Shown: positions 49,737 through 64,000 of the stretch, one piece after another
Layout of the letters: each line of letters begins with the position of its first letter
How positions within the stretch are numbered: the stretch's first letter is position 1
DNA from: Alloascoidea africana
Lineage: Eukaryota > Ascomycota > Alloascoideomycetes > Alloascoideales > Alloascoideaceae
DNA length: 64,000 nt
Reading direction: 5' to 3'
Assembly (NCBI GenBank): GCA_030581615.1
Contig: JAKTTT010000039.1
Coordinates: forward strand, 149,234-213,233
Notes under the pieces: model-generated
Databases searched by the model: none
What the model was told of the DNA's origin: nothing
What the model saw: only the letters and a program-made list of their open reading frames with translations
Program-made: the position numbers and the translations under genes

Positions 49737-52025
49737 ATGGAACGCGGAAACAACCTCTCCAAGTATTCTCAAGACTCAGGCTATTTAAACCAGTCCACGG
49801 AACAGCGCGAAAACCATGAGCAACAGGATTCTCAGCACAATCAACAATGCACGATAGGCTATGCTGGAGATATTCCTCTCTCTTTAAACCAGCTTTCTCA
49901 GGAATCGGGGGAAACGCAACAATTTTACGAATCAGGCCCTGGCTTTGATCACAATCTTGAACACCACAACATTATGGGCGAGTTGGACAGTGGTGCTCGC
50001 AACCAAAACAATCAGGACATGCACCAGACAAGGGCTCCATATTTCAACTTTGATGTGAATGTGAACGTGAACGATCTTTCAAGTATCAAAGAAGAGCTTC
50101 TACCACCACCGCAAGATTTTCCTTCATTAGAGCCCAACTCAATGTCTCTACCGATCTCGATGGACTTTTCAAGCGCGGGGAACGACCTCCTGGTGCCTGA
50201 TATATCTTCAGGAACAGGCCGGCGGCGTTCGGGAACTCAGCTTTCGGATTCCAGCTCGATAGTGTCGGCCTCGCCGCTACATTCGGGGAGCAATTCGCCC
50301 TTGTTGTTTCCCCAGACCACGCACGATGTTTCGTCCAGCCCAGTAGTCCTCGCTGGAGAATCTTATTTTGGAGCAACGTTATTTGAAGAGCACGGGCAAC
50401 TGGAACACGTAGAAGGCAGTTTCAGTCTAAGCGCTATGCTGTCTACTTCTCAACCCCGGAGTCGCAATCGACAGGTTCCTCAGCTAAGCATAGACTCTTC
50501 AATGACCTCCCACGGATCTACAGTTGAAGGGCTGAGGCCGTTGTTTGATGATCCGGCGCCTATGAGTGATCAAGGAGTGGGATTCACACCGTTTAACAAT
50601 CGGCCAGAAGCTGTAGTTTCTTCGTACCAAGTTCCATCGCTAAACGATGGACCCCAGCAGAGTAGTAAACAGCACATGTCGGTTCCTACAATATTACTAG
50701 AAGACAACAAGACGGAGGACCTAGCACAACGAGACCCCATTCCCAGTGCGAATAACTCTCCGTTAATGGCTTTTGACTGGTCAATTGAAGCTACGGGGAG
50801 AAGATCCAGAAATTCACCTCGACATTCGCCTAGGCACTCGCCTCGACACTCGCGCCATTCGTCTGCCGGCAGCATCTCATCGCTGACATACTCGCCAGCG
50901 TACCGGGAACACCCCAGATCGCCGCGGTCGTTCTCGCCGGGAGCCCTGCCACGGCCGCGGTCGCGCTCAGGCTCGCCCTCGCGATCTCGGGGACGCGAAG
51001 CTGGAGGATCGCTTTTCGGCCGGTCGCCAAGACATTCTCGAGGAAACAGCCCCGTCGACAGCACAGCCAGGCCAAGTGTCACGGCCGCCCTGATGCCCTC
51101 GCCCTGCTCCCAGCGGCTGACACCCGGAGGCTCGCTCGGCTGCGCTGGCTCGGGTACCGCCAGCCCCATTGCGCCCGCCGCCGTGCCCTCCAGCCCCGAC
51201 CCGTCCCGGAACCAGGGCCTGCTGCGGCCCGAACCTTCGGCTGCCACAGACCACGGCTCTCCAGCTAAAAGGGTCGTGTCTGCCGGCCCCATCATGGACT
51301 CCAGCATCAGCTACAGCACCGGCGACGGCAACAGACTCAGGAGCACTTCGATGGATCGCAATTACATGTTGGAATTGGCCTCTCCCAGCGGGCCCAGCAA
51401 GCGCACCCAAAAGCACCCTTCTATCCACGCCTGTCATCTGTGTGACAAAAAATTCACCAGGGGATACAATTTACGTTCTCATTTACGAACCCACACCGAC
51501 GAGCGTCCCTTCGTGTGTAGCGTTTGCCAGAAAGCTTTTGCTCGACAGCATGATTGCAAAAGGCATGAGGAACTCCATTCGGGAAAGAAAAAATTTCAAT
51601 GCTTTGGATATCTCAACAACGGTCAACCCTGGGGTTGTGGGAAAAAGTTTGCCCGTGCAGATGCCCTTGGAAGACATTTTAGGACTGAAGCCGGTAGAGA
51701 GTGTATTAGACCTTTGCGCGAAGAGGAAGAGCGCGAGCGTTTCTTGCAAGATCAATCTCAAGGCCAATTTTACTCAATGCCTCTAACCGAGGAAGTTGCA
51801 CAGTCCCCTTCTCAACTTCTCAGTCCCGATGCTATAGCTCCGTTTTACCAGTATCCTGCAGAATCAACTAGCAGTAGTAATGATTCCTACTTCCCGGATT
51901 CATTGTACCGCCAATTCCCCATGTTGATGAACATGAAGAGTACTCGTGAGGGTATCCAAAGCAGTCCTACTTTGAGTCTTAGTGATACTGGAAATGCAAG
52001 CGATGAAGAAGGCAATTCCAGATGA
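49737..52025 (+). CDS. CRZ1: Calcineurin-responsive zinc-finger transcription factor
   Basis: 762 residues. Two C2H2 fingers lie at about residues 563-610 ([20 protein letters not shown], then [20 protein letters not shown]), followed by the Crz1-type atypical third finger with [17 protein letters not shown]. Crz1 is dephosphorylated by calcineurin upon calcium rise, enters the nucleus and binds CDRE sites. A PxIxIT-like docking motif, PQLSID, is at about 248-253 (PIISIQ in S. cerevisiae). Residues about 360-450 carry Arg-His-Ser-Pro repeats and many SP/RS sites, a likely phosphorylated serine-rich region. The coding DNA at about 50,880-51,350 is markedly G+C-rich. Confidence 0.93.
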
Positions 52026-52644
52026 GAACCTACATCAGTACTTCCTTACCACCAAAGTTTTATGAGCCCAGCTGTTCTTCTCTGTTTATTTGTTTGCTTT
52101 GCTTTCTTGGTTGATGTCCCAGTACAAACGCAGTATACGGCTTTTTATGATTTGACATATTCACATGTCTTGTTTACGACAAATCCAGAAAAAATGACAA
52201 AAAAAATGAAACGAAGACCTAAGCATTATACAAGGTCGGAGATGCATTCATCATTTTCATTTATCATCATCATTTTATGATCTGTTTGGTTGGCAATTTT
52301 TATTTTTATTTTTCTTTGATTTATTGATTTCGGTATAGTTCTTCATTAGCTTTGTGATTTGGCTTTACTTTTTTTTTTTCAGTTAGTTATACTGGTTCGG
52401 CATTTCCCGTCGATCCTCTTATATGGCATATCCATCTCGATCAATACAAATTTCACAACACCTTCATCAGTCTATGAAAAAAGTCTGCATGATTCATAAA
52501 ATATCCTATTACTTTTTTTATATCCTTATTCCCTTAAAAACCGCTTGTTCACCAAAAAAAAAAAAAAAAAAATTACTAGTGAAAAAAAAAATGTGAACAA
52601 ATGGCATTTGTAATAAAACTCTCGGACATGAGAGAATCAACCCT
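52026..52644. other. Convergent 3' intergenic CRZ1 / CAB2
   Basis: 619 bp, very AT-rich, with a run of 19 A at 52554-52572 and an A9 nearby. No gene; the 73-codon frame at 52062-52280 looks like 3' UTR. Confidence 0.45.
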
Positions 52645-53673
52645 TCAAGAATGGGATTTTATCCATTCATCATGTATGAGAATGATCTTGGGGACTATTA
52701 TCGATTCAATGTCCACTTTTCCAACTTCATCATCTTCTAACTTTATCACTTCCTCCTTGGGATCCTCAGTGATAAATATAACCTCTTTCTTCCTCGTTTG
52801 TAACAAGTTACCAATTACTAGTTGATGTCCATACCTCTCCAATGCAAAACGGGCTTTCTTCACGAGAATTTCCTCGTCTGTTTCGAGCTTAAAACTGATT
52901 ATCATGGCACTTGGTGCCCATTGATCCACCACCCTTCTCAGAAATTTCGGCACGGGTTCCAAGTCAACGACCAGTTTACCACTACCGCCATGCTCAACTG
53001 AAGATTGAATCTTATGTTTCGGCATTTTCGAGTGGGGGAGGAAAAAATCAGAGACTGCTGCAGCCAAATAAAGAAGAGCCCGGAGACCCACTTTCTCCAA
53101 CTGTTGGGAGATGGCACGCAGGGTGTACAAATATTGGTTGACGGTTGTGAAAGGCAGGACCAAAAGAAGGTTATTCTGTTTAGCATGTTGATATTTTCGA
53201 AGCACTTGGACCATTTCCTGTTGGTACTTAGAATCGATAACTACCGAGTTTGTCTCTTTATCCTCATGCATGTAATCCAAAAAACAATTTGTAGTATGTG
53301 AATAATGTCGGGAATACGGCAAAAGTGAAAACTCCCGATGTAGGAAGATCACAGCATACCCGTTTTCCAAAAAATACTCGGCAGAAGTCGCACCTCTAGT
53401 ACCAGCAGAAAAGTTATCAATGAATCGAACAGTGTTGTTTTCTAAAGGAACAGTGGTGCCTCCAGAAGTCACAAGCGCAATCTTCCTGACTGATTCCTTC
53501 TGGTTGTGAATCTGTATAAAGGATCGGACTTGTTCCATAAGCGAGTCTAAATATGGGGGTGGAGGTGAATGTTGAAAATAAGAGTCTTCATCGTGAATAT
53601 CGGCCGCTGGGAATTCGGGAATAGAACGGTCGACGGCGTTTTGTGGAGCCGGATCCGATGTGTGGAAAGACAT
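52645..53673 (-). CDS. CAB2: Phosphopantothenoylcysteine synthetase
   Basis: 342 residues. Second step after pantothenate kinase in coenzyme A synthesis: joins 4'-phosphopantothenate to cysteine. Eukaryotic PPCS hallmarks: LVTSGGTTVPLENNTVRFID, NFSAGTRGATSAEYFL, a nucleotide-binding LYLAAAVSDFF, and FKLETDEEIL. No CoaC decarboxylase fusion, as usual in eukaryotes. S. cerevisiae Cab2 has 365 residues. Confidence 0.93.
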   Translation of the reverse strand: MSFHTSDPAPQNAVDRSIPEFPAADIHDEDSYFQHSPPPPYLDSLMEQVRSFIQIHNQKESVRKIALVTSGGTTVPLENNTVRFIDNFSAGTRGATSAEYFLENGYAVIFLHREFSLLPYSRHYSHTTNCFLDYMHEDKETNSVVIDSKYQQEMVQVLRKYQHAKQNNLLLVLPFTTVNQYLYTLRAISQQLEKVGLRALLYLAAAVSDFFLPHSKMPKHKIQSSVEHGGSGKLVVDLEPVPKFLRRVVDQWAPSAMIISFKLETDEEILVKKARFALERYGHQLVIGNLLQTRKKEVIFITEDPKEEVIKLEDDEVGKVDIESIIVPKIILIHDEWIKSHS

Positions 53674-54118
53674 TTCACTTGTATTCTTGGCTTTTTGCTT
53701 CTCTTGTCTTGCGCTTTGCGAATAAAAGCATCCTGGCTGGACGAGCGCATTCGAGAAACGGTAATTGTTGAGTGTGTTACCCGGACTGTCGACTTCTATT
53801 ATGGGAGAAAAAAATCAACTTTTGTCCTTAGGAATAGGTTAGCAGGGTGAGGTTTAAATGTTTAGTACTTCTACTGATCAAGATCCTTGGTTAGAAGTAA
53901 TGCACAAACGTATTTGTCTAAATATTTTGGGAAATTTTGTGAGAGAGGATTTGATTTGAGGAGTAGAGTCCAAGTTTGGCCTTGAAGATTTGAAGCTAGA
54001 AATTTCGTATCATTAATTTAGATATGAATGATTAGTGTCTTGGATTTTTTTCTGCAAATCATATAGGAACACCTCTTTTTTCGGTGCTTTTTCACGCTCT
54101 TTTAAAAGAGTCTATTTT
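53674..54118. other. CAB2 promoter and start of the repeat-rich region
   Basis: 445 bp. No gene recognised. From here to the right end the DNA becomes AT-rich, with relics and LTRs. Confidence 0.4.
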
Positions 54119-54286
54119 TGTCACACGCAGCGGGAAATATTGGCCTGAACTGAGCGAAGACCTTCTGAAGGTCGGCTTAGCAATAGCATATATAAAGACC
54201 TCCATATTCCCTTATTTAGAGAAAAAGTTCAATAAGGATTTCTATACTTTGATTGTGATATTAAACTCCCTGTCAATATCATTACA
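54119..54286 (+). repeat. Solo LTR, group B
   Basis: 168 bp starting TGTCACACGCAGCGGG and ending ATTACA (TG...CA). It has the internal palindrome GACCTTCTGAAGGTC and a TATATAAAG box. It aligns over its whole length with the other three copies (61923, 62314, and 63833 inverted). No target duplication is seen. No retroelement coding sequence adjoins it. Confidence 0.8.
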
Positions 54287-54380
54287 CAAGGGTAAAGCAT
54301 GATTTTCCGAATGGTACATAAGTCAATAGCAGTCTACAACAACACCCGAAAAAAATAATTATAGATTGAGGTTGGGGAAA

Positions 54381-54765
54381 TATAGCTGCTTTTATGTGAT
54401 GATATGGGTCTCCATGCTCTGGGGCATAGTGTTACTATACGATTAAACAGCAGATAACCGATAATAGTTAGACATGGCCGTTTCTGTAGAATCATTTGTG
54501 GAAAAGAAAACACAAGTGGAAAAAGTAGAGTGCCAGTAAAACAACGACTTCAAGCAGAAGACTTAAAAATGGGTTGACAAGCCACTATATCACCGCATCA
54601 ACATGGCTCTATCGGTCTCTAAATCCAATCGAGTATCTTTGTTATTTGAAAAAGAGAGCCGGAGCGACGGCTTATATTACCGAACTTGAAAGCAGAATTG
54701 AAGAAATATGGACAAAAACATTCGATTTGGTACTTCTCAAAACTTATATTATTATTAAGAATTGA
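54381..54765 (+). pseudogene. Decayed Tc1/mariner-like transposase, C-terminal half
   Basis: With frameshifts and stops, the pieces follow the end of a Tc1/mariner transposase. MIWVSMLWGI (about 54402-54431) resembles the VMVWG block. Later FKQKT and KWVDKPLYHRI resemble the segment before the last catalytic motif. From 54600 STWLYRSLNPIEYLCYLKK corresponds to SPDLNPIE.LW..LK, where the Glu is the third catalytic residue, and ends ITELESRIEEIWTK. No terminal inverted repeats were found. Assigned by motif order only. Confidence 0.6.
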
Positions 54766-54922
54766 AGCTGTTTTACAAGTCAAGAGAATAGAACATATCT
54801 TGAAAATGATAATGCATAGCTTTTCAAATTGTATACTTTAACCCGCAACATCTTTTTCAATGCTCAAAAAAGAATTCTCTAAGTCTGTACAGAGAACTTG
54901 GAGCTTAAAAATTCTAGGTATG

Positions 54923-55075
54923 TTAGAATCTGAACTCACCACACTTTTCCCCACTACACTGCGAAACTATTGTTTTAGATTGCTTATACAGCGGAGACAA
55001 AACTTTAGTGATGGTCCGGTATCCCACTCTTTGAACCTGATGAATGAAAGGTTTTTGTACGCCGGTGGACATAGA
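54923..55075 (-). pseudogene. Relic of the secreted-protein family
   Basis: On the minus strand, about 50 codons open between stops read VGYRTITKVLSPLY and SQCSGEKC, which align with VGYRAITEVRSPLR..LTQCNAG of the copy at 60.2 kb and with VEYQTTTKVRAPLG..LTQCEAG of the intact gene at 55.9 kb. Stops follow immediately. Third family member, strongly decayed and in opposite orientation. Confidence 0.6.
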
Positions 55076-55155
55076 AAAAAAAAATAGGAAGGTTAATTTT
55101 CTAAGTGATTAAACAAAGATAGGGGAAATAACAGGAGCCAGTATTCTGAGAGTAA

Positions 55156-55422
55156 CTAAACCGTTACTGATAATTCATAACCGTTATTATAACAATGATC
55201 AAATCTTGCAGAAATTTTATATTTATGGCCTTTTTTAATTTTGGCAGAATGATGACGCTTTGTATAATTGAAATCTTTAACCCAAATACCATTGTTCTCT
55301 GCTAAAAAAAAAACAAGGTATTCCTGTCTACATGATAGAAGCCCCGAAAATAAGGTTTTTTTATGACAGGTGAACAACAAAGGGACTCCGAGAAGCCCAT
55401 TGAATGATAAAACAACGAACAT
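55156..55422 (-). CDS. Candidate 88-residue secreted peptide, unknown
   Basis: From ATG 55422 the frame gives 88 residues. The first 20 (MFVVLSFNGLLGVPLLFTCH) look like a signal peptide or anchor. The rest is basic (many Lys, His), has two or three Cys, and an alternation suggesting beta strands (YLVFFLAENNGIWVKDFNY..YKISARF). No family recognised. It is divergent from the 388-residue secreted gene, with 434 bp between starts. The length is short enough for chance in AT-rich DNA, so low confidence. Confidence 0.3.
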   Translation of the reverse strand: MFVVLSFNGLLGVPLLFTCHKKTLFSGLLSCRQEYLVFFLAENNGIWVKDFNYTKRHHSAKIKKGHKYKISARFDHCYNNGYELSVTV

Positions 55423-55856
55423 TACAATAAAGTTCCATCTATTACTTGATGTCCAGAATACTTTTGGAAACTTATCAGGGTTTTTTGTTCTTTTACACAA
55501 TGATTTCTTCCATCATCACGATATAACTCTAATGTTAGGAGAAAACCTTAATACTTCATTCAAAAAGTGACAGTGAAAGAATTATCACAAATTATGTTTA
55601 AAACCAAGAAATCTACGGAGTTTATTGAGTTAGAGTGATTTATTTACAATGAAATATCTATTCTTTGTCTTTACAGAAACCCAAATTCACAACTTTTTTC
55701 ATTAAGACAAAAAACATTTGTTGAAGATTGTGAATATAAAAGGAGCCACTATTACCCAAGGAAAAGAAGGGGAAAAAAAGCTTTATCTTTTTCTCACTAG
55801 TCTTTCTCTACTTTTCTACTTGTTTTTCAATACTTGTTGCATTTTACAACTAAAAG

Positions 55857-57023
55857 ATGAATCTTCGAATCTTTCTCCCGATAGCGCTTGCCATTTTTTC
55901 GGCCGTCAAGAGAGTCGAGGTCCCTGGACTATACTGCAAGGTCTTCTCGGATGATGCACTTTGTCAGATTGAAGAGCCTTTTTTTGACCAGGCATGTGCC
56001 CCTATCGGTGACTGGGACCTCCCCTTTTCCGGCTTCAAGGTGGAATACCAAACCACCACGAAGGTTCGGGCTCCTCTGGGAAGCTTGGAGGAGGGTGTGG
56101 TGCTCACACAATGCGAGGCAGGTCGGGTGGTTTCCGAGATGTCTTTCGGAAATATCACTCTGGAAGACATGTGGGCAACGCCCATCTGCGATAATACGCA
56201 GGACCCACCGATCTGCTATTCCATGGCCCGAGATAAAGGCCAGGTACTCAGATTGGCACCTTTTTTCAAAAAAGAGGTACAACTAGGAGGAATCTTTGAG
56301 TGCAAGGCTGATGCCTCCAAGAATATGGAGGCCAGCCAGTGCTCGAGGGATACCTCGATCCCTCTGGTTCCACTGTATCCAGCTTCTCCTTCAGATCGAC
56401 GGATGGAGCTGAAGTTTTTGGTGGATACAGTAGTGGTAGAACATATACCACTGTATTATTCCCATGACCTCATCTTTGATGAGGTCCCGAAATCTCTGAA
56501 GAAAGAGTGGAGTGATGGGCTCGTCTCGGACGAGTCCTACACGTACAAGTCCGTTTCCGCTTACACACTCAAAGAGAAAAATCGGGCCCTTTCAAAGCTT
56601 GATGAACGTTTGACAGCCTCTGCCGTCAAAGCCGTCCAAAGGATTATTTCGAGTTTGCCAGCTGCTCTTCAACGGTCTGGACAGGCAGGGACACTCGCTT
56701 GGCAGACAATTGTAAGGCTTACGAATATGCTGGTAAGACTGCTGATCCGATGGTTGATACCAATACCGGTACCGCTACCGATACCAGAGCTTCCACTTCC
56801 ATTACCGATTCCTCCTACCTGGCCACAGTATCTTTTGGGAATGGCCGAGTATAACGAAACGTGTCCAAGCATCTTGGAAGAGAAAGATATCTACGAGCGT
56901 CTCACTGTGAGTTTGGAGATGGACCCAGAAGACTTTGATGAGATTGTGGAACTGTTTGAGGAGCGGGATAAAGCCATTATTGCTAGTATTGTGAAGGAGC
57001 AAGACCAAATCGCATTGTTCTAG
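55857..57023 (+). CDS. Secreted cysteine-containing protein of an unrecognised, locally duplicated family
   Basis: 388 residues, intact. Residues 1-16 form a signal peptide; Lys18-Arg19 right after is a possible Kex2 site. About ten Cys fall in residues 20-180 plus one at about 339 (ETCPS). N-glycosylation sequons occur at FGNITLED and YNETCPS. A charged repeat-like segment (LKKEWSDGLVSDESYTYKSV, about 218-237) is the part best kept in the relatives. A helix (about 262-300) leads to a very Pro-rich hydrophobic stretch, IPIPVPLPIPELPLPLPIPP, at about 301-320. The tail is acidic. A TATA-like ATATAAAAG lies about 120 bp upstream. I recognise no family. Subtelomeric position and nearby broken copies fit a fast-evolving surface or secreted function; a secreted antagonistic role would be speculation. 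Confidence 0.8.
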   Translation: MNLRIFLPIALAIFSAVKRVEVPGLYCKVFSDDALCQIEEPFFDQACAPIGDWDLPFSGFKVEYQTTTKVRAPLGSLEEGVVLTQCEAGRVVSEMSFGNITLEDMWATPICDNTQDPPICYSMARDKGQVLRLAPFFKKEVQLGGIFECKADASKNMEASQCSRDTSIPLVPLYPASPSDRRMELKFLVDTVVVEHIPLYYSHDLIFDEVPKSLKKEWSDGLVSDESYTYKSVSAYTLKEKNRALSKLDERLTASAVKAVQRIISSLPAALQRSGQAGTLAWQTIVRLTNMLVRLLIRWLIPIPVPLPIPELPLPLPIPPTWPQYLLGMAEYNETCPSILEEKDIYERLTVSLEMDPEDFDEIVELFEERDKAIIASIVKEQDQIALF

Positions 57024-57599
57024 TTATTGAATTTTGTTTTATTGATTGTGTTTTAGAAATTGATTTTGTGTAAAAAAAACAGAAAATGACATTTCATAGT
57101 GAATTTTGAATTTTAATTAATATCACATCTAAGTCGATACTTATCTTGGTAGGCATTGATGTTTTGCAAAACATCATGAATGGATAGATCATTTATTATG
57201 ATTGAAACAACTATCTGAGAATTTTGTTTTTGCTATAGTTTCAATTTCGTTATATAGCATTGCTTGACTTCAACAGTGAAGTAAGCAAAATCGAGGAAAA
57301 GTCTATTCATAATGCAGTTATACTAATTTGTTGTTATATTGAGATATTCTTAGACCAGAGGTGACAAAGTTCTATTACCATTTTACTCTGTTTTGTAATC
57401 CCAATCAGAAAAAGATTCAGGTTTTTCCAACCAGAATCAGATACTCTTTTCATACTTAAAACCTCCCAAATTTTAAAATGCAAAAGTGGAACTCGACCCT
57501 CCTCTGGCAGATAGACAGATGAATAAATCAGCAACGGAAACCAAACCAAGTTCAAAAATGGTCCATACGTAAAGTACACACAAAAAGTCCGAGAAGATA
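57024..57599. other. Convergent intergenic, no gene seen
   Basis: 576 bp, AT-rich, between the secreted-protein stop and the PEX8 stop. The frame at 57334-57636 overlaps the PEX8 end in another frame and looks non-coding. Confidence 0.4.
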
Positions 57600-59762
57600 T
57601 CATAATTTGGAGCCACCCATGTTTCGATACCACCATTTAACACCAACGTTTGCACGATGCATATCAAATTTGCCCGAAATTGTTCTCCATAATTCCTCTT
57701 TCACAAACTCAATCTCCTGTTTGTTCAGTAACTTGTTGCTACTACTATTATTATTACTACCACCGTTGGTTGACACCAGTAACCAGTACTTGTCCAGCCA
57801 ACTGTTCAATTCGCGCGGGTCTGAGTAACAAAGAGCATTTATAAGGCCTCCTGCAATAGCAGCACGAATAGTTGGTGGTTCCAGGATTTTCTCATCACCA
57901 GAACCAGGTCTATACATTGCAGATGGATTTGGTTTTGTTCTTGGAATCAGAACAGTCACCTCTGGACCCGACGTTGCCCTTGCGTAGAGCGTTTGGAAGT
58001 AAAAATCACAAAGACTCGGATTTATCTGGGAGATTGGGGAAGGTGGATATATTGCCTTTGCGATTGATTCCAAAGCGAGAATGAACTGATCCGAGGAGAG
58101 AACACTAGGGAACAACTCGAGAACCGTTTGCAGGTAATCAGGGATAAGTTTTGCATTTACCTGTGCGTTTTTGACACATGAGAAAGAGGCAAGAATGACG
58201 GAGTGAGCAGACTCAATTATGGGTCGTAGCACTGACATGTCAAGCTTTGATCCCTGAGAAGGTCGAAGCAAAGAGTTTGCAAGTGGGAGAATCTGGAAAT
58301 CGACAAATTCCTGGTCTGCAATTTGCACAAGGTGTTCAAAATAATCAAGAACAAAAACGAGTTTTGCACGTTCAATAGGGCTCGCCTTTAAAGTTTCAGC
58401 TGTTGCCGCTGTAGAAATCTCGGATCCCATGTTTATCAGGCAGTTGTTTGCAATCATACGACCCAAATTTTCAGCAGACGGGGTCGAAGTTTCCAAAAGT
58501 CCATCAAGTGCAGTAAAGTAGACAAAATTGTAAGCGGAAAACCCGGCGGTATCTATTTTATGAACGATGAAATGTAGATGGAAAAGGGATTGGAGAATTG
58601 TGAGGTAGAACCGGGGGAAGACTTGGAATACCAGGTTTCGACTTGAATGTAAGGAAAAGGACACATACCCTTTGAAGAGTATCATGAGGGAGAATACAGT
58701 CAGTTATAGTAAGTGCCACAGGTCTTGATTCGATTCAAAAGTCTGTGGATTCTGACGATGGAAAGTGGAAGAGATAAACTCCAAATCTTCAGTGAAGGAC
58801 AACAATCTCGTTAGAGACTCATCCATTTCATCAAAGTAGGAGTTGGAGCCCAGAATACAGTGCTGGATCAAAAACGATAGAGAGCTTAGGTTTGCCAAAA
58901 CGGGGGTTTCAAGTCGAGCTTTTAGTTTTTGAGGAATTGCTGATTCCCGGATGACAAACCCGCCGTTGAAACCGAATTTCGCAATGAATACTAACTCAAC
59001 CAACTCGGGAAGAATCTGTTTCAGAGGCATTCGCTTCACAGCATTACTTGATAACCTTGTGAAACATGATCCGAGACCCAAAAGTGAGACAGCGGAAACC
59101 AAATATGTTGTTCGGGTTTGAAAAATTTGAATAACAGAATCTAACAAGAGCGTTTCAAAACCTGAGATAGAATCTTTAATCGAGCGTGTCAAATTCAACT
59201 TTGACGGAGTTTCAGAAATCAGGATTCCTGCAATTGCAGAACATCTTCTATAAGGTTGCGAGACCAAATTGATTCCTCGAAGAACGGCTTTGTAAAAAAT
59301 AGTTGTTGGAAGAGTAGGCTCCGAGATAAGATTTTTCCTGTTGAAAGCGGCTCTAAATGCTTCTGTTACGATTTGGGCCGTATTTACTAAAATATCATCA
59401 TGCTCTTTCAAAACGTTGTTGCTTAAAAGTACTTGCTGTGTCAAGAGGGCCACATTCATTTCATTTTTCAACATGGGGAGTGTATAGACAAACATTTGTA
59501 ATAGACTAAATTTCAAAGGAAGTTAGTGCCAACACTTTCAACTAGACTTATCATTTCTAAAAATTGAGCAAACCGTGCCTACGTTTTGGAAGAGAGTGAT
59601 GTTTGCGGGTTTGCCAATTCCAACAACAGGATATCGATCTGTAGTTAGGTTGGGATAATGGTGGCTTGACCCGTTGCCATAAACGAGTTTTGAGGAAACA
59701 GATCTGTTTCTCTCGGCTGAGCGCCAGGCCATTTCTCGTCCCTGTAGTCCCAGATTATACAT
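57600..59762 (-). CDS. PEX8: Peroxin 8, exon structure unresolved
   Basis: Three open stretches in the same frame (59762-59541, 59516-58707, 58703-57600) together cover about 700 codons. The end is KWWYRNMGG followed by SKL, a peroxisomal targeting signal type 1, and the blocks SLFHLHFIVHKIDTAGFSAY, ELW and WWY match Pex8. Pex8 is an intraperoxisomal peripheral membrane protein linking docking and RING complexes during matrix import. Stops interrupt the frame at 59540 (TGA) and 58706 (TAA). The first can be removed by a 42-nt intron (donor GTCTAG, branch CACTAAC, acceptor TTTAG). The second is harder: a GTATGT at about 58671 and a shifted frame reading LTITDCILPHDTLQ suggest one or two short introns. 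A disabled gene is also possible. Confidence 0.8.
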
Positions 59763-60218
59763 TTGAGGAGATCAAAAAAGTGACTCAATTTTCGCAACTG
59801 ATCGATTATTCAAACTCGGATATACAAAATACAGATATCTGGGGATAATTATGAGTAGTATGGTACAGCTGGCAGATTGGCCTTGTGATTAAGTCAAGCA
59901 CATGTCAGGTATTAACTGCGAAGTCTATAGGAGAGGTAACTGAACCGCATGAATTGGCTAATTGACTTGTGTTTTTATAGTAAGTGGTTCTCATAGTAGA
60001 GGTATGATAACTAACCTTCGTATTTTCTAAGAGAAGCGGGAAAGTCATCGATTGGCGTTACCCTGCATATTTCCAGAGAAAGCATATAAAAGACGTTCAA
60101 CTCATCACAAGATCTTTGTAACTTCTACACCACCCAATTGAACTTCTTTTTTGGCGCTAATCTCATCCTTTGGTCGGTTTTCTTCACCCCTGAATAACTT
60201 TCTGGGGGTCTGAGTTGT
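59763..60218. promoter_or_regulatory. Intergenic, PEX8 promoter and upstream region of the broken secreted gene
   Basis: 456 bp. CATATAAAAG at about 60083-60092 is a TATA box suited to the copy starting near 60219, suggesting the promoter of the broken gene survives. Otherwise nothing recognised. Confidence 0.45.
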
Positions 60219-60905
60219 ATGAATGGAGCAGTACACAGGCCCTCTATTGAAGTGTTCCTAAGCGCCAAGACCTACTACACGGCGATGTTGTTGTCCAAGC
60301 TTCAGGTAGGCTACCGGGCCATCACTGAGGTTCGGTCTCCTCTTAGGAGCCTGGATGAGAACGCCCTGCTTACACAGTGTAACGCGGGAAGTGTGGCTAT
60401 GGAAAGGTCGATTGGAATCATTTCTCTGGAAGGCATGTGGTGCGCTCCAGTCTGCGATACGACTCTGGACCCCAGGGATGCTTTTCAAAGGCCCGAGAAT
60501 ACGACCTGGTGACATAAAGGTTGTAGAGAGTGTCCCGCTCTTCTACTCCCATGACACGGTCATGGACGAGGTTACTGTGCCTCTCAAAGAAGAGTGGAAC
60601 GATGGACTGGTGTCAGACAAGTCGTATACATTCAAATCGGTAGCGGTCAATACTCTAAAAAAGAAAACCCAGGCCCTATCGAAGATTGATTTGCGTCTCG
60701 CTGTGATCTTTGGCGGCCGAGGCTGTCAAACGTTCATCAAGCTTTGAGAGGGCCCGATTTTTCTCTTTGAGAGTGTAGGCCGAAACGGACTTGAACGTGT
60801 AGGACTCATCCGACACGAGCCCATCGCTCCACTCTTCTTTGAGAGGCAGTAGTAGTCCCATGACCTTATCTTTGACGAGGTTCCTGTGCCTCTCAAAGAA
60901 GAGTC
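60219..60905 (+). pseudogene. Broken second copy of the secreted-protein family
   Basis: Relative of the intact gene at 55.9 kb. The first part (VGYRAITEVRSPLRSLDE, LLTQCNAG, GMWCAPVCDTT) aligns with residues about 60-120 of the intact product, then ends in a stop after ENTTW. A frame change and a large deletion follow; the next part (VPLFYSHDTVMDEV, EEWNDGLVSDKSYTFKSVAV) matches residues about 198-237. From about 60735 to 60847 the same segment recurs on the minus strand, and at 60856-60905 it recurs on the plus strand (SHDLIFDEVP). The signal peptide region is missing or unrecognisable. Not functional as it stands. Confidence 0.8.
60581..60847. repeat. Imperfect inverted duplication inside the broken gene
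   Basis: Plus-strand arm about 60581-60670 and minus-strand arm about 60735-60847 encode the same segment (VPLKEEW.DGLVSD.SYTFKS). The minus arm is closer to the intact gene (ALSKLDERLTASA) than the plus arm, so it was probably copied from another family member rather than by a simple local fold-back. Confidence 0.75.
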
Positions 60906-61416
60906 CCTCGATACCTCTGGTGCCAATTTTTTCAGCTTCTCCACGGCAAAATAATTGGATCTCTTATTGCCATAGAAAGTGATCACGAACATCATCAAAT
61001 CAATGGCTTCCGAAGCCGAGTCAATAGTTATTCTTTTTTGTTTTTTTGAACAACCATTACAATCCAATTTTTCTAGTTACATATTTACTTTTTCTAGTTT
61101 GCAATGCTGGGGGAGTTTAGTTTAGAAAATAAGTTGAATCTTTAAGCGCCAGGTGTTGTGTGTAGGCCGAGCGGATAATAAGTACTTTTCTGAGCATTGA
61201 ATCAATTTTGTGCACGGGTTAAAATGGTTAATATGAAACAATTTTCTGTCGTCGGTTTCTTTCAGCAGAAGATATCCTCTAGTATTTCAATTAGTCTTGT
61301 AACCGGTCATTATTAATAGCAAAATGAGTTTCTATTTGCTCGAAACATTGTTGAAGAATGAGTTATGATTGGTCTTCATAAATGGCTGACCAAAAGAAAA
61401 GTAGGCTCAAGACCAA
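60906..61416. other. Intergenic, no gene seen
   Basis: 511 bp of AT-rich DNA between the broken secreted gene and the transposase-like relic. Nothing recognised. Confidence 0.35.
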
Positions 61417-61790
61417 GTGCAATATAGTAGATATGTAGGAGCTATGGGAAAGTCGGGTTTGATAGTAAAAAAGCCAAAGGAGGGAAGAACACCAAGGCTC
61501 TCCTCAGTGGAACCGCAATTCGCGAAAAGCCTTTTTACATCTCAGAACTTAGACAACGCTCTCAAAAATCAAATGTTTTTTGTCAAAAGGATGAACAAAC
61601 GCGTCTCTATCGAATTGATCATAAGAAAATCGAAGCGCCTTAACGTTAAGGATAGTACAAAGCTTTAAAGAACAAAGCAGGAACAGACCAATTGTAGAGC
61701 CATGTTAACCTTTGCATAATCTCACAAAAACTTGGATTTTGGCTATTACGCTTCGGTAGGGGAGTCAAATCCTGTAATAACTAATATGCT
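61417..61790 (+). pseudogene. Possible Tc1/mariner transposase relic, N-terminal half
   Basis: An open stretch to 61668 reads KPKEGRTPRLSS and NKRVSIELIIRKSKRLNV, the style of the GRPRK..S linker and second helix-turn-helix of Tc1 transposases. After the stop, another frame reads RAMLTFA and SHKNLDFG then ESN, like R..RL.FA..H...W...FSDES, containing the first catalytic Asp block, now degraded. Weaker evidence than the C-terminal half at 54.4 kb. Confidence 0.4.
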
Positions 61791-61922
61791 AGTCTAATAA
61801 CCCAGAATATCGTCCCTGTATAATTTGCTCTTCCAAGAATGGCTCATGATCTCAATATATAGAATACACAATGTAACAGCTGAAATCTTAGGATGACGAA
61901 TACAAAAGTTAAGTCATTCAAG

Positions 61923-62089
61923 TATCACACGCAGCGGGAAATGTCGGTCTTAACTGAGCTAAGACCTTCTGAAGGTCGGCTTAGCAATAGCATATATAAA
62001 GACCTCCATATCCCCTTACTTAGAGAAGTAGTTCAATAAGGATTTCTATAATTTGATTGTGATATTAGCTCCCGGCCAATATCATTACA
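61923..62089 (+). repeat. Solo LTR, group B
   Basis: 167 bp, begins TATCACACGCAGCGGG (TG mutated to TA) and ends ATTACA. Shares GACCTTCTGAAGGTC and CATATATAAAGACC with the 54119 copy. No target duplication found, so it is older or recombined. Confidence 0.8.
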
Positions 62090-62313
62090 CTATACATGTC
62101 ATTTAAAAAAAATTGGTAAAATTTTTAGCCGTTCAATAGGTAAATGTATAAAACAGAATAATCTTTGGGAAAGAGAAGAAAACTCAAGTTATCTGATTTC
62201 TTCTGTTGAAGGTTTTGAATTATCTCACTCAAATCCGCAATATCCTGATTCAAAATCTTTAATCTGTCCAACGACGGTAGACATTTCTACTCGTATATCT
62301 TTATTTTAGCTAG

Positions 62314-62479
62314 TGTCACGCGTAGCGGGATATTCCCGTCTCAACTTAGCTAAGCCCTCCCGAAGATTCGACTTAGCAATAGTATATAAAGACATCCATA
62401 TCCCCTTACTTAGAAGAGTAGTTCAATAAGGATTTCTATACTTTGATTTCGATATTAGCTTCACGCCAATATCGCTACA
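62314..62479 (+). repeat. Solo LTR, group A, with 5-bp target duplication
   Basis: 166 bp from TGTCACGCGTAGCGGG to ATCGCTACA, flanked on both sides by GCTAG (62309-62313 and 62480-62484). This is the mark of LTR retrotransposon integration followed by LTR-LTR recombination. It contains GTATATAAAGAC, a likely promoter. Confidence 0.9.
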
Positions 62480-63832
62480 GCTAGCTCTAACAAAAATCAT
62501 TTTTGATTTGCAGAACACAATTTTCATACTACTTTCCAATTGCCACAAACTTTTTTGACTTTGACAACTTCAACATTTTCTCCAATGATTTTTGTTTGTA
62601 GAGATGACTATGTGAATCAATTGTGGGGGAATATATAATCTATTAGTACGTCTCATTCAGATTGTTGATTCTTGGGAAACCAAAAGGGTTATGATTTTTA
62701 AGATTTGGTCAATTGATCAATTGTATCAAACTTGAAAGCACGACGACTGTAATATGTGACAGACATGGTCACATCCTATTTACTTTTATTCACCTAAAAG
62801 TAACCTATTTCCTATTATTATGCTCTTAAACCTCATAGAGCATCATTCAAGAAGATAGGGGCTTCTTGAATGATCATCATGTATAATCTATCGTTAGCAC
62901 AAGTAGAATTACTTAAATAGTGCATTCATTCCTTAGATAGGAAGAACAAGAAATCATATCTACATTCTTCTCCTCGATAAACCTTTCCAATTGACTGATG
63001 TTCACTATCAATACTCTAGCCACACGCTACAACGACAGTTAGATACTTTTCTGCTCACCATAATTTTGTCTACAAAAACATACTTACTGTAGATTTCTCA
63101 ACTGTATCCTTCCTTTCCTGCACTTTTGATGTACAATTTTACATCATCGATCAAAAACTATGTAAGACTTTTTTTATAAAACTTCAAATAAATATGAATA
63201 TGAATGATGCTTTGCGGAACAAATCTAACCTATTTGTAAATGTTACTCGGATTAAACAATGTTTTTTTTCTTGCTCTTCCCAAACCTGCTTCTAAGCATC
63301 TTGTAGTGCTTTAGAAACCTGGATCAACAACCAATTGTTGGATCTGCTTTGCTTACACGTTAACAATAAATTTCTACTCATAACCGTCTAGCACATTTTT
63401 AGTTTTCATTCTTGTCCTTGTGTATTGCCAATACCTTTGTCTGCGGTACTTTGATTTCTTTGAGGGAATATGCGAGTTTGTAAAATGATTTTTGTATTTT
63501 GTAGAAAACTCTAAATCATCTTGGATGGATAATCGGACTTTGTGAATGAGTGAAATAAAACATTAATATAGTCTGTAAACAAATTAATTTCTTGTTTTTG
63601 AGCGTGTGAGGAGGTACAAAACATCTTGATTACTCTAAGATGTTCATCAATTTGTTAAGACAACTGGGAAATCTGACTCATCCTATCACTTTGGTCCATT
63701 GTTAAAAGCATATTCATGTCTAAGATTAGTGATTGGACCTATGAAACTTGAGAGTAGAATATGATTTTTTTGGTTTTTCCTTTTCATGTTTTATCTACTT
63801 ATTGTTTATGGATTCTAGTTTTTTTGAACCCC
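62480..63832. other. Stretch between two inverted LTRs, no gene seen
   Basis: 1353 bp, AT-rich, no long open frame, no retroelement coding piece. It contains a 13-bp inverted repeat (62842-62874) and an imperfect one near 63624-63647 (AACATCTT...AAGATGTT). Confidence 0.4.
62842..62874. repeat. 13-bp perfect inverted repeat
   Basis: Arms ATCATTCAAGAAG (62842-62854) and its exact reverse complement (62862-62874), 7-nt loop. Could be a hairpin terminator-like or a small palindromic scar. Confidence 0.75.
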
Positions 63833-63997
63833 TGTAGTGATATTGGCGTGAAGCTAATATCAAAATCAAAGTATAGAAATCCTTGTTGAACTACCTTCTA
63901 AATAGGGGGATATGGATGTCCTTATATACTATTGCTAAGTCGAATCTTCGGGTGAGCTTAGCTAAGCTGAGACGGGAATATCCCGCTACGCGTGACA
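63833..63997 (-). repeat. Solo LTR or end of an element, group A, minus strand
   Basis: 165 bp, reverse complement of the 62314 copy from TGTCACGCGTAGCGGG to the CACTACA end. It touches the window's right edge, so an element may continue beyond. The left flank (ACCCC) and the three visible right-flank bases (GCC) do not show a duplication. Confidence 0.85.
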
Positions 63998-64000
63998 GCC

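Follow-up and report, generated by a model that had tools for sequence, protein, structure and literature searches.

Folded coding RNA in a multi-copy gene for a candidate killer-like secreted protein of Alloascoidea africana

A 64,000-nucleotide stretch of Alloascoidea africana DNA (the window) carries, near its right end, an intact gene that lies beside broken relatives of itself. This locus raises the question of what kind of protein the gene encodes, and of what is kept by selection while other copies decay. The window forms the terminal part of contig C39 (contigs are numbered with a C throughout) in a genome of 23.18 Mb and 138 contigs, whose gene content is budding-yeast-like (Exo5, SIL1, UBR1-like, and PEX8). 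A non-standard CTG code was considered and rejected. Compared with the best PDB relative, the six CTG codons of ADE13 fall three times on Leu, three times on Phe, Met, or Ile, and never on Ser or Ala, while the conserved CTG codons of GLK1 that were looked at align with Leu by eye; the standard genetic code was therefore used.

The gene, its product and its copies

The gene is a single open frame that runs from an ATG at 55857 to a TAG at 57023.

55857..57023, + strand: intact gene for a predicted secreted preproprotein of 388 amino acids (from the open frame, the copies, dN/dS and composition)

An earlier account made from the letters of the window (the sequence-only reading) described an intact 388-residue protein with a signal peptide, an adjacent Lys-Arg pair, a Cys-rich N-terminal half, and a Pro-Ile-Leu-rich stretch; these features were confirmed, the signal peptide as a signal-like hydrophobic start. 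Hydropathy reaches its maximum at residues 5–16 (mean 2.48 over 12), a signal-like core that is consistent with a predicted signal peptide. Dibasic pairs occur at residues 18–19 (KR), 138–139 (KK), 181–182 (RR), and 215–216 (KK), and the KR and RR sites are common to all three intact copies of the gene. Eight of the nine Cys residues (27, 36, 47, 86, 111, 120, 149, 162, and 336) lie within residues 27–162. The best 22-residue window holds 20 Pro, Ile, Leu, or Val residues, a count that shuffling the protein 20,000 times never reproduced; this run overlaps a cationic hydrophobic stretch with its peak at residues 291–309 and then continues beyond it. N-glycosylation sequons are found at residues 99 and 333. 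Upstream, GAAAAA occurs at 55772–55777, approximately 80 nt 5' of the start codon, in A-rich DNA where it may be present by chance; the motif is reported near the start of killer-satellite genes and some nuclear K1-like (KKT) genes in the accessible part of PMC7888664.

The sequence-only reading had proposed profile searches and structure prediction as a check, and these gave neither a relative nor a confident fold. No relative of the 388-aa protein was found in Pfam, and the AlphaFold models had pLDDT values of 37.9 (protein alone) and 32.3 (protein plus window fragments). Each query found one chance-level match among PDB sequences (E 0.95 and 1.5), IMG/VR returned no relative with either the protein or the family alignment as query, and Rfam gave no match at its gathering threshold over 50000–64000. 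The totivirus polymerase profile PF02123 had no match here, but it had none in any control genome either. A weak match at C21 (E 0.064) was discarded: its ORF has no family features and by eye resembles a regulatory protein.

Within the genome, a search with the 388-aa protein gave 24 matches at approximately 13 places (our grouping), of which three are full length and intact: the window copy, one at 267 kb of the 433 kb of C17 (matching at 96%), and one at 163 kb of the 517 kb of C5 (93%). The C89 copy is broken by an in-frame stop and a frame change and has lost Cys 149. At C36:33 kb lies a diverged broken relative with 35% identity across residues 3–289; in the alignment, read by eye, it retains all eight N-terminal Cys and has neither the KR nor the RR site. 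Searches with pieces of the C36 copy returned 19 and 11 matches and brought to light a second, broken subfamily, adding damaged members on C49 (two places) and at C36:1, C108:1, and C24. Of the ~18 places of the family in total, three are intact and about 15 are broken or cut off. Five contig edges lie inside family members (C49:3, C36:1, C108:1, the end of C50, and the start of C126), as is expected if repeats broke the assembly, and further copies may be missing. The last two edges are probably the two ends of one gene across an assembly gap. Ploidy or allelic copies were rejected as the source of this multiplicity because CAB2 has one genome match and ADE13 one full match, apart from a weak, 25%-identical ADE13 relative. 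The recurrent duplication and loss that the sequence-only reading had read from the window is thus seen genome-wide, and neither a housekeeping family nor a single stable copy, the two outcomes named as contrary to it, turned up. Its broken relatives within 6 kb, at least two in number, were found as fragments 3–4 kb downstream of the gene, at 60294–60943. The codon map sets slightly narrower limits for the three main fragments than the protein matches given below: residues 58–117 at 60294–60473 (+), 190–252 at 60511–60699 (+), and 214–258 at 60709–60843 (−).

60294..60485, + strand: broken diverged relative, residues 58–121 (protein match)
60511..60702, + strand: broken diverged relative, residues 190–253, left arm of an inverted pair (protein match)
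60706..60846, − strand: inverted fragment of a close relative, residues 213–259, right arm of the inverted pair (protein match)
60829..60943, + strand: scraps, residues 198–220 and 164–178 (codon map)

The placement of the gene at a chromosome end is not supported. The window ends where C39 ends (213233), inside an LTR-like repeat at 63833–63997, and no telomere-like repeat was seen there by eye. The window copy lies 6 kb from this contig end, contigs not being chromosomes, and the intact copies of C17 and C5 lie inside their contigs. The proposed genome search for more copies near telomeres found further copies, two of the intact ones being contig-internal.

The surroundings of the gene bear on how it is duplicated. 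It lies within a unit of approximately 8 kb (54119–62090) between direct LTR-like repeats, which belong to a repeat family with at least 32 genome matches.

54119..54288, + strand: LTR-like repeat that bounds the ~8-kb unit on its left
54289..55856, + strand: upstream region of 1.56 kb that recurs only beside gene copies (7 of 7 matches)
57600..59495, − strand: duplicated PEX8 copy, split by breakage into two frames here and open over 630 aa at C50
61923..62090, + strand: LTR-like repeat that bounds the ~8-kb unit on its right
62312..62479, + strand: further LTR-like repeat
63833..63997, − strand: LTR-like repeat at the contig end, ~170 bp

The PEX8 copy of the unit matches PEX8 in PDB (E 8.8e-30) and is also broken at C5; a second PEX8-like sequence, 46% identical and with a stop, is found at C112. 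The points at which the C17, C89, and C1 copies cease to match the window fall in a span of about 15 bp (57103–57118), 80–95 nt past the stop codon, and this shared endpoint suggests the true end of the ancestral unit. One explanation makes the gene the cargo or product of a mobile LTR element, with the ~8-kb unit as the piece that moves. The borders are direct and 93% identical over 143 nt, the entire unit recurs between LTR-like repeats at C5, and C17 and C126 show tail-LTR-head junctions, all of which would suit such an element. However, its interior holds the PEX8 copy, no interior ORF other than this gene and the PEX8 pieces exceeds 130 aa, and Pfam found nothing, gag and pol included, in three interior ORFs. 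Neither primer-binding site, polypurine tract, nor target duplication was seen by eye, and the C89 and C1 copies end near 57103–57118 without an LTR. An LTR element is thus very improbable; old LTR-like repeats that recombined and so duplicated whole segments would fit better than transposition.

The intact copies evolve under purifying selection. Pairwise dN/dS is 0.075 (C39–C17), 0.145 (C39–C5), and 0.125 (C17–C5), with dS of 0.26–0.27 and dN of 0.02–0.04; by part, it is 0.11–0.19 for residues 20–182 and 0.04–0.06 for residues 183–388. These values do not support the diversifying selection suggested by the sequence-only reading. Divergence peaks at 56069–56218, where DNA identity is 77.3% to C5, 80.0% to C89, and 92.7% to C17, against 89–98% to C5 in the neighboring 150-nt steps, and even there the changes are mostly synonymous. 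In the 150-nt steps upstream, C39 is 85–99% identical to the other copies. Such a pattern points to sequence exchange among allele classes that have diverged, and less to diversifying selection acting on the protein.

Foldedness of the coding RNA

The firmest new result of the analysis concerns the RNA of the intact copies.

56007..56606, + strand: coding nt 151–750, RNA predicted to be folded beyond what protein and codon usage need, kept in three copies

Predicted folding was compared with that of synonymous-codon shuffles, which keep the same protein and the same codon usage (40 per segment). Across nt 151–750, all nine segments of the three intact copies gave z values of −3.3 to −6.1, and none of the 40 shuffles reached the native energy in any segment. 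None of the 118 control segments, taken from 28 ORFs, comes near these values (mean −0.02, SD 1.09, minimum −2.62). The excess is weaker in nt 1–300 (−1.2 to −3.1) and nt 601–900 (−1.4 to −2.5) and absent from nt 751–1050 (+0.6 to +1.5). Two of five segments from the broken C36 pieces also fall under the control minimum (−2.9 and −3.4). With 600-nt segments, nt 181–780 of the three copies gave z values of −4.5 to −7.3 (0 of 50 shuffles each), and 14 control segments of this length ranged from −1.8 to +1.6. In a scan of 2749 windows, which covered the 64-kb window and 11 further loci mostly chosen for family content rather than at random, 56281–56580 was the most stable segment after 12 hairpin windows (robust z −6.6).

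This foldedness has been retained through 41–46 synonymous codon changes between copies. Simulated random synonymous change of the observed amount costs approximately 36–53 kcal/mol on average, and the native energy was reached in 0 of 60 simulations in each of six comparisons; with clustering and G+C preserved, it was reached in 0 of 63 in each of the six (z −2.9 to −6.0), the comparisons being non-independent since all draw on the same three sequences. Synonymous changes that break pairs are depleted in the five comparisons computed out of nine, with odds ratios of 0.33–0.69 (p = 0.22, 0.014, 0.009, 0.019, and 0.007). The sense strand folds more than the antisense strand in 11 of 11 segments (difference z −0.3 to −2.7; controls 0.04, SD 0.95), and the antisense strand of the region is likewise more folded than expected.

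Covariation among four sequences was not evident: 89.2% of cells are paired versus 89.0% after shuffling (reached by 41 of 500 shuffles), 17 of 500 shuffles attain the covariation score, both partners of a pair are changed in 3 cases versus 1.8, and the RNAalifold covariation term is +0.44. Because one consensus fold shows no clear covariation, the retained feature is overall foldedness rather than a proven set of helices. These findings, all computed from predicted folds, indicate that strong folding of nt 151–750 has been preserved as a property of the RNA, separate from the protein. For a nuclear yeast gene it is unusual that 600 nt of coding sequence are maintained at two levels, the protein and the foldedness of the RNA.

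Broken copies in inverted pairs

Two of the fragments downstream of the gene make up an inverted pair predicted to fold into a hairpin, and the same arrangement recurs in the family.

60570..60858: inverted-pair hairpin, 116 predicted pairs in the main stem (RNA folding)

Inverted pairs occur at 6 of the 10 broken places that can be assessed, a number that excludes five cut by contig edges, and give seven hairpins: the one above, two on C5, and one each at C17:263.7–264.0 kb, C50:45.8–46.1 kb, C1:594.6–595.1 kb, and C49:3.2–3.9 kb. Single, non-inverted broken places are those of C89, C1:864 kb, C36:33 kb, and the partly covered C24. The main stems hold 96–250 predicted pairs. In the C39, C17, and C50 hairpins a closer relative stands opposite a more diverged one, and the spacers of the five C39, C5, C17, and C50 hairpins measure approximately 28–123 nt (by hand from the codon map). 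Against 60 mononucleotide shuffles, four hairpins gave z values of −13.6, −13.4, −12.9, and −6.8, the weakest being the one at C5 158980. The hairpin copy on C17 has, approximately 0.2 kb upstream of it, a short ORF (1073–1306, −, of the C17 locus) that resembles the N-terminus of a DNA-transposon transposase.

The hairpins are probably relics of decay by instability, in which deletions remove the central parts of convergent inverted paralogues and leave hairpin-like remains that have no function. The short spacers fit this account, as do junctions that are different at each inverted-pair place. The arms carry no wobble bias, with 65 G-U against 70 A-C mismatches in eight palindromes, one of them outside the family; there is therefore no sign of selection on arm pairing, and the hairpins may be decaying by-products, which we consider more likely than function. 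In addition, a near-perfect palindrome at C36:35600–36400 (arms 89% identical, 788 nt self-overlap) encodes a fragment that by eye is retroelement-like, and such a transposon-like case means that palindromes also arise without this gene family. Decay by itself, however, does not account for the strong folding of the coding RNA in intact copies.

A rival explanation, which we consider unlikely, is that the inverted pairs are transcribed into hairpins and diced into siRNAs that silence the intact copies, whose mRNA escapes by folding and synonymous divergence. The frequency of inverted pairs and the length of their stems would agree with it, 4 of the 7 hairpins have 21-mers in common with intact copies, and family hairpins make up 10 of the 12 most stable of the 2749 windows (the other two belong to the C36 palindrome). 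The genome also encodes an Argonaute, as judged by a Piwi domain (PF02171) at C28:100635–101600 (E 2.3e-76) in a 1068-aa open frame, so the yeast probably has, or had, RNA interference. Yet the arms lack wobble bias, no 21-mer of the intact copies occurs in the remaining three hairpins, stability at C5 158980 is below that of the others (z −6.8 versus −13), and the C36 palindrome arose outside the family. A fuller version, an RNA arms race in which a selfish killer-like gene would be silenced by its own inverted broken copies and a tight fold would hide its mRNA from Argonaute, is quite improbable.

Possible precedents exist for such silencing. In the part of PMC7528652 available, palindromic loci of N. 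castellii account for 74.1% of siRNA reads; these are likewise inverted repeats in an Argonaute-bearing budding yeast, but they were established by sequenced siRNAs, whereas the hairpins here are known from sequence. Nmy and Tmy of Drosophila simulans are inverted repeats that match their Dox-family targets and thus resemble the present hairpins in being akin to a duplicating target family, according to the accessible part of PMC10292708; they belong to another kingdom and act on another target, and their expression and silencing have been demonstrated. If the present hairpins make siRNAs, they would be a fungal counterpart of these fly conflicts and would tie RNA interference to a killer-like nuclear gene family.

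A killer-preprotoxin-like proposal and known systems

The reading preferred here, to which we give a tentative probability of about 0.4, is that the gene belongs to a nuclear multi-copy family encoding a secreted, Kex2-processed, killer-preprotoxin-like antagonistic protein. Signal peptidase would cut near residue 16, and Kex2 would cut after KR19 and RR182 to release a Cys-rich chain (20–182) and a second chain (183–388), whose cationic hydrophobic stretch and Pro-Ile-Leu run may act at a target membrane. The protein would be deployed against other yeasts or strains, a plausible antagonistic role. Killing is proposed from the architecture and from a copy pattern that resembles that of the KKT genes. 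The reading draws on the signal-like start, the KR and RR pairs, the nine Cys, eight of which are also present in the 35%-identical relative, the low dN/dS, the preponderance of broken over intact places, and the strong folding of the coding RNA. Against it stand the lack of KR and RR in the diverged C36 copy, a Cys layout (8+1) that differs from that of K1 (3+3), the lack of a Pfam or PDB relative, the low pLDDT of the structure models, and the lack of covariation for one consensus fold. Selection on the RNA itself could reflect descent from, or passage through, an RNA element of the killer-satellite kind; alternatively, the folding may shield the mRNA from RNA interference in an Argonaute-bearing yeast or serve mRNA control.

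Alternatively, the product could be a different sort of secreted host protein (with a cell-wall, inhibitor, mating, or nutrient-related role) whose gene was duplicated incidentally, a serious contender at clearly less than even odds. Strong purifying selection and the lack of a known toxin relative in Pfam and PDB would suit such a protein, although a gene of this sort would not usually have so many broken copies or such diverged allele classes, and the 388-aa protein, read from its sequence, has neither a GPI-like hydrophobic tail nor adhesin-type Ser/Thr-rich repeats. A search by titles and the starts of abstracts found no publication on folded coding RNA or hairpin pseudogenes of a nuclear killer-like gene; most subscription papers lay outside its reach, and absence from print is not implied.

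Compared with known systems, the killer-preprotoxin-like family has its likeness to the wtf killer genes of fission yeast in organization. The wtf genes are multi-copy, LTR-associated, rich in pseudogenes, and subject to gene conversion, as the family here appears to be. The wtf proteins, however, are membrane proteins that act in meiosis, whereas the 388-aa protein looks secreted and soluble.

Among preprotoxins, K2 and K28 likewise have a signal, Kex2-type sites, and a two-chain plan, but by their description in the available part of PMC13211469 they carry three or more processing sites, against two candidates here, and the HDEL-type end of their group is absent from the 388-aa protein. K1 is processed by Kex2 into delta, alpha, gamma, and beta, and the present protein offers KR 18–19 and RR 181–182 besides its KK pairs. 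The six Cys of K1 are divided 3+3 across alpha and beta (PMC13211469, same part), in contrast to 8+1 here, and because of this difference in layout the protein is not classed as a member of the K1/KKT group.

The KKT genes of Saccharomycotina are nevertheless a close parallel in form. As given in the accessible part of PMC7888664, they encode proteins of 153–390 aa, their flanks are 83–94% identical, and their dN/dS is 0.23–0.72; they specify secreted preproproteins of similar length with dibasic sites, as predicted for the gene here, and they share the multi-copy state, similar flanks, purifying selection, and many pseudogenes, a trait evident here in three intact copies among ~18 places. KKT genes are mostly subtelomeric; here two intact copies are contig-internal and the third is 6 kb from a contig end formed by an LTR-like repeat, on contigs that need not be chromosomes. 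A difference is that folded coding RNA does not appear in that part of the KKT description (PMC7888664), the comparison being by description only. The same source proposes, in the part seen, that RNAi-bearing yeasts favour nuclear killer genes (PMC7888664).
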